Shown piece by piece: positions 19,103 to 24,262 of a DNA stretch of 64,000 nucleotides. Position 1 is the first letter of the stretch. The number at the start of each line of letters is the position of its first letter. The DNA is taken from the NCBI GenBank assembly GCA_949751835.1, contig CATKHK010000036.1, positions 310,001-374,000 on the forward strand, read 5' to 3'. The notes beneath the pieces are model-generated. The model made no database searches and had not been told where the DNA came from. It was given only the letters and a program-made list of their open reading frames with translations. A program made the position numbers and the translations under genes. The stretch is from Blepharisma japonicum (taxonomy: Eukaryota > Ciliophora > Heterotrichea > Heterotrichida > Blepharismidae).

Positions 19103-22100
19103 TTAATAGCCTCTTTCGCGATCTGTTAAGAAAATAGAGCCAATGACAGAAGAAAACCACCCTCCCTGCTGCTCAGGCTCTTCTATAGGATCTTCTATAG
19201 CCTTTTCTTCAGTCTTATGCTTTATTCCAGTAGCCATTTCTTGTATGAGGCTTTGGAATTGCTCTTTGATTACAGCAATTTCTTCGTCTTTTTCTTTCAA
19301 TCTTTTCTCCAGATCGTGCGATTTTGCTTCCGATAGCAATTTTTCATAATAAGATTTTTGGTTTTCGAGGCTTGCGCGATTATCATTCTGGCTTTCTCTT
19401 ATTTTATCAAATAAAGCTTCAATTTCTCCATTGAGATTTCCTATTTTCTCATGCAAAATTTCTTTATCTTCTTCAAGCTCTTTAATTTTAGCTTCAAGCT
19501 CATATTTTTCATTTTGCAATGTATCATTTTCCTCTTTATTTATTTGATTTTCCGAAAGATTGTTGATTTCTTCATAAGATTTTGAGAGTTCGTAATCTTT
19601 TTGTTGAATTTGATATTGAAGATCTTCTATCTTCCCTTCTAATTCGTTTAGTTTTATATTCATTTCTTTTTTATGAGTTTTCTTTAGGGCTAATTTTTGC
19701 TCTAAGAACGACATTTCTTCTTTCAATTTTGATCTTTCTTCAGACAAAGCTAAATAGTTTTGCTTGATTTCTTTATTTTCAGTTCTTGATTTTTCGATTT
19801 CTTTTTCTAATAGTTGCAATTTACTTTTAAGCTGGGCATTTTCATTACTTAAATGGGAATCATTTTTTTCTTTTTTTTCTGAAAATTCATGAATTTCTCG
19901 CTGGAGATTTGTCTTAGCAATTTTTTCATTTTTAAGCTCTTGCTCTAGCATAAGAATTCTTTGATTTTTGTCAAGCAAAATGTTTTTTATTTCATCTATT
20001 TCGGATTCTTTTTCTGATATATTGTTCTGCAGCTCTAATAAATAATCTTCTTGATTTGTAGTGCTCTCTTTGTATTCTTCAAACGCAGTGACTGTATCTT
20101 CATAGTATTGCTTATTCTCAGATGCTTCGGTTTTATGCATTTCAATTTCTATCTCAAATTTTTTCCTTTCATTTATAAGAATTTGCTCATAGTGGGTTTT
20201 AACATCTTCTAGCTTTTGCCTATCAGAATTAATTTGGCTTGTTAACTTTTCTATTTCCTCTTCGTATTTTGATGCCATGCTAGCTAGCTCTGCTTGATTA
20301 TTTTCATTATTTCTTTGAATATCATCAACCAAGTTTTCATTTTTCAGCTGTAGATTAGAGTTTTCGAGAGTTTTTGCATCAAGCTCGCTTTTGAGATTTT
20401 CTAATTCATTGAATAAATCATCTTTTTCTTTTTGGAAGCTCTCTTTAAGAGCTGCAAGGTCTTTTTGATAATTTTCCATTTCAGTTTCAAAAGAGGTTAT
20501 TTGACTTTGGTAATTTTTTACTGTATCTGAATGGTTTTCTTGCAGAATCTTTAAATTTTCTTCTTGTGTGCTATTCTGTGCTTCAAGAACATCTACTTTT
20601 TCTTCAAAAAGCTTTATTTCTGACTGCAATAATAGAATTCTTTCATCTCTATCTACTATGCTTTGCTGGATTTCGATATAATCACTATTAATTTTATCGT
20701 AGTTTTGATTGAGGTTTACATAGTCCTCTTTTATGTTTTTTAGCTCAAAAATTTCTTTATTTTTATCGTAAATTTGTATCTCAAGAATCTTGCTGTCTGA
20801 TGCTAATTTTTCTAGTTTTTCTGATAGGTTATTTGCTTTGTTTTCTATCTCCAATCTAGATTTTTCAATGATTTCTAAATTCAAATCTTTTTCATTTAGC
20901 TCTTTATCTTTTTGTGAAATTATTGAAATATAATTTTTACTTTCTTCATCTGACTTGTGTAATAAATCTGACATTTGTTTATCTTTTAGGATAATTTCAT
21001 TTTCTAGCTCTTCTCTTTCTTTTTCGAGTGAATTAATGACATCTTTGAAGCTTTTATTTTTCTTTTCACTTTCTTCAAGTTTCCTTGAAATCTCATCAAC
21101 TGCTTTTTGTAATTTTGTTTCCCTCATGCTTGCCTCTGCTAAATCTGCTGAATATTTTTTCTCTATTATTTTTGCTTCGTCCAAATTTTTTGAAACCTCA
21201 TCAATGATTTTTTGTAATTTATTTTCTCTCACACCTGCATCTGTCAAATCTGCTAAATTTTTCTTCTCTATTATTTTTGCTTCTTCTAATTTTCTATTAG
21301 CAATTTCATTTTCTTCCTTATAAACAGTAAGCTTATTTTGATAATTTTTTATTTCATCATGATAGACTTTTTTGGTTTTTTCAAATTCTGCCTTTTCTCT
21401 TTCAGCTTTTTCGCTATTTTCATGCTCGGTTAAGTGGAATTCGTTTTTAATATTCTCTATATGCTCATGTGCTTCTCTTAACTCAATCTGCATTTTGTAA
21501 ATCTGTTCCTTTTGTTTATGTCCTTCTCTCTTTTCTTCAATAAGATAGGTATGGAGCCTAAGCTTTTCTGTTTCTGCTTGTTGCAATTGAGCTTGAAGTT
21601 CTATCATCGCATCCTCTTTAGGCTCACTCAGCATTTGCATTTTCAAGTTATGAATTTCGTCCTCTAGTGCTCTTCTGTTAGCTTCAAGATTTTTAATTTG
21701 CAGTAAGGCATGCTCATAATCTTCTTCTGCTTGTTTCTGTTCAAAAATCGATTTCTTTAAGTCAACATCAGCCTTGCTTTTGGCTTTACTTAAAATTCCA
21801 ATTTTCATTTCTTGCTCCTCTACAATTCCTTTTAGTCTTTCTAGCTCTTCATTGTTTTCTCGGCATTGATCTTTGAATTGCTTTATTTGATTTCTATTAG
21901 AAGAAATGGTTTGCTGCAATCTTTGTCTCTCTTCGTTAAAATACTGCTTATCGAGCTCTTGCTCATGCCTAAATCTGTCAAGTTGTTTTAATAATGCTGA
22001 TTTTTGGATATCAAGTTCTTGAATAGTTTCTCTAATTTCTGCTAATTCTAAGTCTTTTGTCCCAATATAAGATTGCAAAGAAAGTTTTTCATTTTCTAAC

Positions 22101-24262
22101 TTAGCTGCTTGAAGTTGAAGGTCACATGTATCAGCTTCTGATGGGTTTCCTGCACTAGCTGACCTCAGAATAGTATTTTCATGATTAACAGAAATTAATG
22201 CTTTCTGCATATTTATTATTTCTTCTTTTAAAGCAGCTCTGCTTTCTGCTTCAATTTTAAGATCCCATTCTAATTCTTGAATTTTCAACTCGTTTTTGGC
22301 TCTTAAGTCATTTAAATAGGAAACCTGCTTATAAAGCTCTTCGTTTACTTCTTTCAGCTCTTCAATTTGGTCTTCACTTTGTTGAGTAAGCTGTCTTAGG
22401 GCTGCTTTCAGCTCTAAATTTCTTTCGTTGACTTGAACCTCTTCAACTTTACTATTTTTCTGGGTTTCCTCTGGCTGAGGAACCTCAAAGCTTTCGGCTT
22501 CTTTATATTCAACTGGATTATTTTCATCTTTATTTGGATTATTTTGATTAAAAGCCATTTCCACATGAATTAATTCTTCTTCAACAATTGATACCGTTTC
22601 TTTAATTGGTTCTACCATAGAATCATCTTTTATTGGCTCAATTTTGTCTTCTTCCTCTAAATTTTCATAATTTTCATTAAAAGCTCTTGCTGAAATTTCT
22701 TCTTCTTTTTTTCTGCTGAATTCTTCTATAGGTTCTTCAATATTTGCTGGCTTATAATTCATTTCACTATATGAAGATTGTCCTAGAGTGTCTACATAAT
22801 TAGACCTTTTCCTTGGCTCTGCAGGTTTTGCAAATGCTTTAGGTGGGAGCATTGCTTCTTCCTCTTTTGTGTCCTCTTGGCCTTCTATTACCCACTTTTT
22901 CTTTACTTTGTCATAATAAAATCCACCAGAGTTGCCCAATTTCATTTCTTTGGGAGGAGGATCATTAGATGTAGATTTTGATGAAAAAATTCCTTTGATT
23001 TTGGCTCCAAAAGATTTAGGCTGATTTTCTGGGGGTGGAGGCTGAGTTTTTTTGATTGCTCTGATGGTCTGATGAAGGGCATTTCGGCGCTCGATCTTTG
23101 GTAAGTGAAAACTTGCAAAATTAGGAATATACTCAAAATCTTGATCAGATTCTAAAGAGCGTGCGGTTGACCGACAAGTGCTCATATCAGGTGACACGAG
23201 TGGCATAGCAAGATTTAATTTTGGCTCTTCAGCAATTTCTTCTTTTTCTGGTGTTTCTAAATCTTTTCTTATTCTTACAGATCTTAGCTTTTGCTGTGGT
23301 TTTGAACTCGTAATTTTATTGATTTTTTTTGAAGGCTTATTACTTTCTAATGTTTCTGTTAAAATTTCGATGCTTTTTGGCTTGAAATTTGCTACTTCTT
23401 CTGTTGCAAACTCTTTTATCTGATCAAACTGCTCTTTGACTAATTCTGAGATTTTTTTCTGGTCATCTTTCAACTCTTCGATTTTCCCTTCTAAAACCCT
23501 TTTCATACTCATCTTTTTATTAAGAAATTCATTTTTGCTATTATTTCCTTGGCATCCCACCTGTGATTGCCTATGAATTTCATTATGAACTATAACTTGT
23601 GAAGATTTTTCTACTGATTCTATTTTTGTCTGAATTTCTGCTTCAGATTTTGGTGACTGAATTTGAGTATTTTTATCAGTTAAAATTTTTACCTCAGTTT
23701 GACTGAAATTTTCTTTACTCTGAATTGCTGATGCTACTTGAATTTCTTTTTCAGCCTGAAGTTTTACGAATTTTTGATGAGTAAGAGCTTCCATTTTTAG
23801 CTCTTCTATACATTGACTGCCTTTTTCAGTAGCTTTTGGGCGCACTTGGATGGACTTTTCTTTCAGGTTGAAAAAAGAAAAGTCTGTTTGTGACTTAGAT
23901 TTCGAGCTAGAAACTTCTGTTTGGGTAAAATTTGATTCTGAGGGGCTACAATTTTGAGTAGATGAATCAACTCCTTTTACACGAATTTGCGATGCTACGT
24001 TGGCTTGGGATACTTGTGTTTGGATTTCCTCATCTAATAGCTTTTTATATGCAATTTCTACTGTTTGGATTTCTTTGCTCACTAAGTCTTCCACATTGAA
24101 TCCTCTTCGACTGGCGACTCTCAAATACATTTTTTCCAGCTTTGAAATCTTGAAGCCTCTTTGCTCATATTTTTCAGTCATTAATTCAAGCTCATTGAGT
24201 AGTGAATTTTTCTCTTCCATCAGCTTGGCAACTAGACTCTTCGGGTCTATATCTAATTCCAT
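19103..24262 (-). CDS. Giant coiled-coil protein with LC8-like motif array and Sec16-like motif
   Basis: 1719 residues in one intronless frame. Residues 65-235 hold about fourteen [T/S/I]-Q-x motifs at mostly 11-residue spacing. Residues ~417-475 (FGAKIKGIFSS, KLGNSGGFYYDKVKKKW, acidic/Pro tail) match the conserved C-terminal motif of Sec16. From ~620 to 1690 the chain is continuous coiled coil, including one 35-residue tandem repeat. The last residues, GGWFSSVIGSIFLTD, look like a membrane-touching amphipathic or hydrophobic helix. The layout suggests a golgin-like or ER-exit-site tether able to bind dynein light chain; this role is inferred. Ends in TAA at 19103-19105. Confidence 0.85.
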   Translation of the reverse strand: MELDIDPKSLVAKLMEEKNSLLNELELMTEKYEQRGFKISKLEKMYLRVASRRGFNVEDLVSKEIQTVEIAYKKLLDEEIQTQVSQANVASQIRVKGVDSSTQNCSPSESNFTQTEVSSSKSKSQTDFSFFNLKEKSIQVRPKATEKGSQCIEELKMEALTHQKFVKLQAEKEIQVASAIQSKENFSQTEVKILTDKNTQIQSPKSEAEIQTKIESVEKSSQVIVHNEIHRQSQVGCQGNNSKNEFLNKKMSMKRVLEGKIEELKDDQKKISELVKEQFDQIKEFATEEVANFKPKSIEILTETLESNKPSKKINKITSSKPQQKLRSVRIRKDLETPEKEEIAEEPKLNLAMPLVSPDMSTCRSTARSLESDQDFEYIPNFASFHLPKIERRNALHQTIRAIKKTQPPPPENQPKSFGAKIKGIFSSKSTSNDPPPKEMKLGNSGGFYYDKVKKKWVIEGQEDTKEEEAMLPPKAFAKPAEPRKRSNYVDTLGQSSYSEMNYKPANIEEPIEEFSRKKEEEISARAFNENYENLEEEDKIEPIKDDSMVEPIKETVSIVEEELIHVEMAFNQNNPNKDENNPVEYKEAESFEVPQPEETQKNSKVEEVQVNERNLELKAALRQLTQQSEDQIEELKEVNEELYKQVSYLNDLRAKNELKIQELEWDLKIEAESRAALKEEIINMQKALISVNHENTILRSASAGNPSEADTCDLQLQAAKLENEKLSLQSYIGTKDLELAEIRETIQELDIQKSALLKQLDRFRHEQELDKQYFNEERQRLQQTISSNRNQIKQFKDQCRENNEELERLKGIVEEQEMKIGILSKAKSKADVDLKKSIFEQKQAEEDYEHALLQIKNLEANRRALEDEIHNLKMQMLSEPKEDAMIELQAQLQQAETEKLRLHTYLIEEKREGHKQKEQIYKMQIELREAHEHIENIKNEFHLTEHENSEKAEREKAEFEKTKKVYHDEIKNYQNKLTVYKEENEIANRKLEEAKIIEKKNLADLTDAGVRENKLQKIIDEVSKNLDEAKIIEKKYSADLAEASMRETKLQKAVDEISRKLEESEKKNKSFKDVINSLEKEREELENEIILKDKQMSDLLHKSDEESKNYISIISQKDKELNEKDLNLEIIEKSRLEIENKANNLSEKLEKLASDSKILEIQIYDKNKEIFELKNIKEDYVNLNQNYDKINSDYIEIQQSIVDRDERILLLQSEIKLFEEKVDVLEAQNSTQEENLKILQENHSDTVKNYQSQITSFETEMENYQKDLAALKESFQKEKDDLFNELENLKSELDAKTLENSNLQLKNENLVDDIQRNNENNQAELASMASKYEEEIEKLTSQINSDRQKLEDVKTHYEQILINERKKFEIEIEMHKTEASENKQYYEDTVTAFEEYKESTTNQEDYLLELQNNISEKESEIDEIKNILLDKNQRILMLEQELKNEKIAKTNLQREIHEFSEKKEKNDSHLSNENAQLKSKLQLLEKEIEKSRTENKEIKQNYLALSEERSKLKEEMSFLEQKLALKKTHKKEMNIKLNELEGKIEDLQYQIQQKDYELSKSYEEINNLSENQINKEENDTLQNEKYELEAKIKELEEDKEILHEKIGNLNGEIEALFDKIRESQNDNRASLENQKSYYEKLLSEAKSHDLEKRLKEKDEEIAVIKEQFQSLIQEMATGIKHKTEEKAIEDPIEEPEQQGGWFSSVIGSIFLTDRERGY
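21091..21303 (-). repeat. ~105-bp tandem duplication inside the coiled-coil gene
   Basis: Two adjacent units of about 105 bases (35 codons) with clear DNA similarity. Each encodes AKIIEKK-x-x-ADL, a RE-x-KLQK segment and a DE-x-S-K segment. The unit length is five heptads, so duplication kept the coiled-coil register. Confidence 0.75.
23558..24070 (-). repeat. Degenerate 11-residue TQT-like motif array (protein level)
   Basis: Residues 65-235 of the coiled-coil protein. Core triplets IQT65, IQT80, SQI91, TQN102, TQT113, SQT124, IQV138, SQC149, IQV174, SQT187, TQI199, IQT210, SQV221, SQV233. Gaps are mostly 11-14. This resembles known dynein light chain LC8-binding arrays. Confidence 0.7.

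Follow-up and report, generated by a model that had tools for sequence, protein, structure and literature searches.

A stretch of 64,000 nucleotides from Blepharisma japonicum (contig CATKHK010000036.1, positions 310,001 to 374,000; referred to here as the window) encodes a 1719-residue protein at positions 19103 to 24262 of the minus strand, in a frame that stays open with genetic code 4 and contains no TGA codon. Residues 65-235 of this protein, which correspond to window positions 24070 to 23558, contain an array of glutamine-centred triplets that resemble docking motifs for the dynein light chain LC8, and we propose that this segment probably holds several LC8 dimers. The features of the locus are as follows.

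19103 to 24262, minus strand: frame coding for the 1719-residue protein (read with genetic code 4; orthologue P0002 in Blepharisma stoltei)
24107 to 24244, minus strand: predicted N-terminal helical stretch preceding the array, residues 7-52 (AlphaFold2 helices; identity with B. stoltei)
23558 to 24070, minus strand: array of 14 LC8-type cores, residues 65-235 (core counts, flanks, all 14 glutamines retained in B. stoltei)
23387 to 23542, minus strand: predicted helical stretch directly after the array, residues 241-292 (AlphaFold2 helix)
22733 to 23137, minus strand: conserved module, residues 376-510 (FASFHLPKI ... GGFYYDKVKKKWVIEG ... YVDT), common to an array-free paralogue
19223 to 22411, minus strand: long E/K/L-rich stretch, residues 618-1680 (composition)
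19106 to 19165, minus strand: tail at the C-terminus, residues 1700-1719 (GGWFSSVIGSIFLTDRERGY), which the orthologue and paralogue in B. stoltei retain

The long E/K/L-rich stretch is read as coiled coil from its composition, and the two helical stretches on either side of the array are, as modelled, a possible first (residues 7-52) and a possible second (residues 241-292) dimerisation segment. No Pfam family scored above its cut-off in the 1719-residue protein, including the module at residues 376-510 and the stretch at 618-1680, and from its shape one may guess that it acts in the cell as a large coiled-coil tether or scaffold.

The array consists of 14 cores, IQT at residue 65, IQT at 80, SQI at 91, TQN at 102, TQT at 113, SQT at 124, IQV at 138, SQC at 149, IQV at 174, SQT at 187, TQI at 199, IQT at 210, SQV at 221 and SQV at 233, with gaps of 15, 11, 11, 11, 11, 14, 11, 25, 13, 12, 11, 11 and 12 residues between them. 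An earlier note on this DNA had listed these cores and gaps, and all are present at the positions it gave. It had also described them as TQT-like motifs at 11-residue spacing, and here the picture is more mixed: all 14 have a Q-centred anchor, with a literal TQT at residue 113 alone, and seven of the 13 gaps are exactly 11 with none shorter, while the other six range from 12 to 25. Twelve of the cores fit [STI]Q[TVI]. The list is itself a selection: there are 22 glutamines and 18 [STVI]Q pairs in residues 61-240, and the pairs TQV82, SQA85, IQS180 and IQS201 had been left out. A recent origin by tandem duplication was rejected, since Tandem Repeats Finder detected no DNA tandem repeat between window positions 23400 and 24200, and nucleotide identity between the unit flanks was 0.351 compared with 0.314 (sd 0.018) for random units taken from the segment.

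To count cores without hand selection we used a strict definition, [STVI]Q[TVI], and residues 61-240 contained 13 of these, whereas 100,000 composition shuffles averaged 1.82 and never exceeded 9; the remaining 1539 residues of the protein contained four. As background we took 162 mechanical open reading frames (ORFs) of at least 150 codons (68,327 amino acids, introns ignored) from 20 segments of 10 kb of the genome together with the window. The array ORF has its 13 strict cores within 171 residues, while none of the other 161 exceeded three, a number reached in two of them. The longest chain of strict cores at gaps of 11-13 residues was six, which was matched in 22 of 20,000 trials that placed these 13 cores at random, and this rose to 279 when gaps of 11-15 were allowed, to 605 for gaps of 10-15, and to between 281 and 807 when all 18 [STVI]Q pairs were counted, so that P for the spacing lies between ~0.001 and ~0.04 depending on definition. 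Among unselected glutamines, a distance of 11 occurred in seven pairs compared with 2.4 expected (18 of 5,000 shuffles), which is non-significant after correction for 29 distances. The 14 chosen sites have no gap below 11, which occurred in 11 of 200,000 trials even with a minimum approach of 8, a figure that depends on the choice of sites in the earlier note. Core density is decisive and regularity of spacing is moderate; the long and regular ladder that had been claimed stands for its density, which is far beyond chance, and not for a highly regular spacing. When the array was used as a query against the genome it found itself, with the next match at E=0.083 (five matches in all), and for the four weak matches the strict cores in the corresponding frames numbered 1, 2, 1 and 1. 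Such a homology search would miss unrelated ladders, and the array need not be unique in the genome.

We compared the flanks of the cores with the published rules for LC8 ligands, which favour buried, mid-sized residues at −1 and +1, a polar residue such as aspartate at −4, a large and often basic residue at −3 and P, D or E at +2, with bulky aromatic residues disfavoured at −2 (Jespersen et al. 2019, PMC6607443). At −4 there is D or E in 9 of 14 sites (background 0.17, P=1.3e-4 against the other residues of the segment), with a polar residue in all 14, and at −3 there is K or R in seven (P=0.004). T, V or I occupies +1 in 12 of 14, partly through the choice of sites. Flanks were also scored with a small and crude matrix built from 16 published binder peptides (PMC6607443), in which −1 holds T and V alone, undervaluing S and I. 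When non-core residues of the segment were drawn at random, 7 of 20,000 draws reached the matrix total of the 14 flanks, although the matrix separates single peptides poorly, as 17 of 27 non-binders score at least 7.5. Taken singly the sites look weak; jointly, their flanks lean towards LC8.

LC8 itself is present in this genome in near-canonical form. The dynein light chain family gave 21 genome matches at E≤0.001, 20 of them above the family cut-off, and four genes on four contigs (L001, L002, L003 and L004; 1486-1755 in each) encode one identical 89-residue LC8. These four genes differ pairwise at 29-52 of 270 nucleotides, and an identical protein despite this divergence points to strong purifying selection on every copy. 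Compared with its best PDB match, 1rhw, which we take to be the fly protein, 79 of 83 aligned residues are identical, with all four differences in the first 27 aligned residues and none in the last 56. Because of this near identity, motif rules derived from animals should apply in Blepharisma. A further comparison comes from the radial spoke protein RSP3, which in Chlamydomonas and vertebrates has described N-terminal TQT-like LC8 motifs and in Tetrahymena predicted ones (PMC12399478). We found four RSP3 homologues (L038-L041), whose first 220 residues together hold eight strict sites (VQT, TQT, TQV, TQI and IQT), one to three per N-terminus and 20-25 residues apart. Against 5,000 shuffles the core counts were three at L038 (reached in 63 shuffles), one at L039 (2043), two at L040 (507) and two at L041 (449), and the sites at the last three loci rest on homology to RSP3 because their counts are within shuffle range. 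At one shared site the paralogues L040 and L041 carry INTQTD and INIQTD, so that T and I replace one another at −1 in a protein expected to be an LC8 client of this organism, and the two offer natural variants for testing how tolerant the LC8 anchor is.

The B. stoltei orthologue P0002 (1716 amino acids) is 89% identical overall and retains all 14 array glutamines and 39 of the 42 core residues, the changes being S149T, V176A and V235L. Across residues 61-240 identity is 165/180 (92%) with zero indels, and it is 56/60 (residues 1-60) and 51/55 in the helical parts beside the array. The array is more identical than two stretches taken as disordered (69/80 and 87/107, together 156/187; P=0.018, with hand-chosen boundaries), and also more than the N-terminus of the array-free paralogue (115/159 between the two Blepharisma; P=3e-6 against the array). 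On this comparison of two sequences the array segment is constrained within Blepharisma.

The paralogue is present in both genomes, as P0003 in B. stoltei (1470 amino acids) and as a locus in B. japonicum (L036, 793 residues read). Like the array protein it has the FYYDK module and the beginning of the coiled coil, and P0003 has the C-terminal tail as well. Its N-terminus has a single strict core and no array. The shared module, at window positions 22733-23137 of the minus strand, can be written FASFHLPKI...GGFYYDK.KKKWVIEG...YVDT in the array protein and L036. Kinship of the GGFYYDKVKKKWV module with the C-terminal region of human SEC16A was considered and dropped, as comparison with a segment of that region reached E=0.28 across 12 residues, and the sole genome match of the Pfam family TPR_Sec16 (E=6.5e-5) was to a frame read as Sec31-like. 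Orthologue and paralogue in B. stoltei both retain the tail, GWF.S..GSIFLTDRERG, although the coiled coil preceding it in the paralogue has largely diverged, and the tail may be a membrane or partner anchor.

Multivalent LC8 docking is the best-supported reading of the array, because the cores, the −4 and −3 flanks, the near-identical LC8, the RSP3 anchors and the constraint on the segment all agree with it. We consider it likely, with fair confidence, that residues 65-235 form a largely disordered docking segment in which LC8 dimers pair two parallel chains. The chains would be held parallel by the helices at residues 7-52 and 241-292 together with the long coiled coil, and each LC8 dimer would clamp one motif per chain at successive sites ~11 residues apart. 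A multi-site segment between helices fits known LC8 clients, whose sites often have coiled coil nearby, and in Swallow a coiled coil raised the affinity (PMC12017986). The smallest gap among the chosen cores, 11, equals the spacing that allows neighbouring LC8 dimers in dASCIZ, the fly ASCIZ and a proven client, in which QT2 (274-285) and QT3 (285-296) are 11 residues apart (PMC5963919). If fully occupied, the segment would become a beads-on-a-string rod of at most ~56-58 nm (171 residues at 0.33-0.34 nm). Single sites would probably be weak, with occupancy set by avidity, neighbours and LC8 concentration.

Several observations weigh against this proposal. At the level of single sites, D, E or P is present at +2 in 3 of 14 and unenriched, whereas all eight RSP3 sites are acidic there, and sites 113 and 187 have the disfavoured F at −2. 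In the matrix, 13 of 14 sites score below every one of the 16 binders (leave-one-out 7.5-21.1), with site 199 at 8.6, six fall under the lowest of the 27 non-binders (1.5), and the second-best glutamine of the whole protein, at residue 407 (8.0), is outside the array. Six of the 14 sites here, and four of the 14 in B. stoltei, break no rule, compared with 13 of 16 binders, one of three weak binders and 9 of 27 non-binders. Among the published peptides, those with SIQT, two human (DAZL and FMN2) and one viral, are all non-binding, and of five with SQT one is weak and four are non-binding (PMC6607443). Conservation adds to these points, as T, V or I at +1 falls from 12 of 14 to 10 of 14 sites in B. 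stoltei, and changed residues are 3 of 42 within cores and 12 of 138 between them; as the cores are no more conserved than the intervening residues, two sequences this close cannot show selection on the triplets themselves. Both array sequences come from one genus, and protein searches gave P0002 and P0003 alone, with no relative outside Blepharisma; in one of them scoring was confined to the 7977 candidates that shared most words, and the exact-word filter may miss diverged heterotrich orthologues. The RSP3 control is clearly above chance at L038 alone of its four loci. Finally, complexes of dASCIZ were uniform with linkers of 6 and 9 residues, but heterogeneous and more often off-register with the 3-residue linker of QT2-QT3, equivalent to 11-residue spacing (PMC10046861), which makes a uniform rod less likely. 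Of the multivalent LC8 array proposed in the earlier note, docking at multiple sites thus remains the best-supported reading from flanks, LC8, RSP3 and constraint, while binding at all 14 is unsupported, 13 of them being non-TQT and low-scoring.

Three other explanations of the array deserve consideration. The 11-residue period could be structural, with the glutamines fixed by a hendecad helix or coiled coil that continues the flanking helices, or by a short beta-solenoid, and 11 residues is indeed the hendecad period. We modelled residues 1-330 with AlphaFold2 (two sequences, single chain; mean predicted local distance difference test (pLDDT) score 49.7), which placed helices at residues 7-34, 41-52 and 241-292, with ten-residue blocks at pLDDT 51-71 over the first two and at 75, 84 and 78 over residues 251-280. 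Helix was also weakly drawn over residues 57-95, 146-184 and 207-234, which favours such a period and counts against a wholly disordered segment, and the first sites and the 149-174 stretch could be partly helical. However, pLDDT blocks over the array were 28-62, no strands were modelled, leaving a beta-solenoid unsupported in the model, and Foldseek found nothing in the PDB at E≤0.001. The array also has 3.9% L compared with 11.8% in the long coiled-coil stretch, and 28.9% S/T/N/G/P compared with 18.3%, and its gaps drift from 11 to 15 with one of 25, which together make a structural period improbable. The sole sequence match to a solved structure around the array at E≤10 was SG122_C3 (8e1e; E=0.19).

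The array could instead be an SQ/TQ cluster, a multi-site substrate of an ATM/ATR-type kinase in which the specificity of the kinase sets the glutamine. Such clusters have at least three SQ/TQ within 100 residues, a density that the 11 S/T-Q pairs starting at residues 82-233 reach, and ASCIZ is an ATM interactor as well as an LC8 client, combining both roles. Yet five of the 14 sites have I before the glutamine, and ATM/ATR-type kinases do not phosphorylate I-Q; neither T, V or I at +1 in 12 of 14 nor the enrichment of K/R at −3 is explained by kinase specificity. We rate this the least probable of the three when taken as the sole explanation, although the array could serve as both kinase substrate and LC8 dock. 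The remaining alternative, another partner that reads QT or a disordered linker under constraint in which the Q-triplets have a different role, would account for the low matrix scores of single sites and for a +2 position that lacks the acidic bias of RSP3. It has to contend with a buried −1/+1 preference, acidic −4 and basic −3 that match LC8, and with an LC8 that is present nearly unchanged, and although it ranks ahead of the other two we hold it to be unlikely.

If LC8 does dock on the array, the array protein would be a client in which we saw no kinship in sequence with the animal, fungal and axonemal clients already known. Among open-licence PubMed Central papers we found none that treats LC8 together with Blepharisma, and of five that came up for multiple LC8 sites none uses the word protist. 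RSP3 resembles the array protein in its N-terminal TQT-like LC8 sites, predicted in Tetrahymena and seen in this genome, but has one to three sites 20-25 residues apart with an acidic +2 in 8 of 8, compared with ~14 at ~11 in the array, where an acidic +2 is mostly absent. Swallow and LCA5 likewise have LC8 sites beside coiled coils, but with one site in Swallow and two in LCA5, where LC8 bridges tetramers (PMC12017986). ASCIZ/ATMIN of animals is closer in number, with 11 sites plus three SQT/VQT motifs in human and seven sites in fly, one fly pair being 11 residues apart (PMC5963919), and it has its many sites in a disordered region, as is proposed for the array. It differs in being a zinc-finger transcription factor that regulates LC8, with mainly TQT anchors and a fly spacing of 11-38 residues by coordinates; no zinc-finger family was among the Pfam matches of the array protein up to E=1.

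As proposed, the array protein would work most like Nup159 of yeast, in which a multi-site segment also adjoins coiled coil, and whose five LC8 sites, bound by Dyn2, form a stiff beads-on-a-string rod by electron microscopy (PMC12017986, PMC3995210). The role of LC8 binding in Nup159 is stated as not known in PMC12017986. The two differ in that Nup159 has five measured sites compared with ~14 candidates here, and is a nucleoporin with FG repeats, which are absent from the array protein (one FG dipeptide in 1719 residues); to judge from its sequence, the array protein is a member of neither the Nup159 nor the ASCIZ kind. If most of the sites bind, their count would equal or pass that of ASCIZ, whose 11 is the largest number given in PMC12017986, and with tight spacing. 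That most of the ~14 are occupied together, in what would be the longest and tightest LC8 ladder known and a ~56-nm zippered rod within a giant coiled-coil tether, is a tentative suggestion that we think rather doubtful. Were it true, the array-free paralogue would be a similar protein without the rod, and LC8 supply could tune the length or stiffness of the tether. Binding by LC8 would also make the array a test of whether many weak, closely packed motifs zip in register, with the paralogue as a built-in control.

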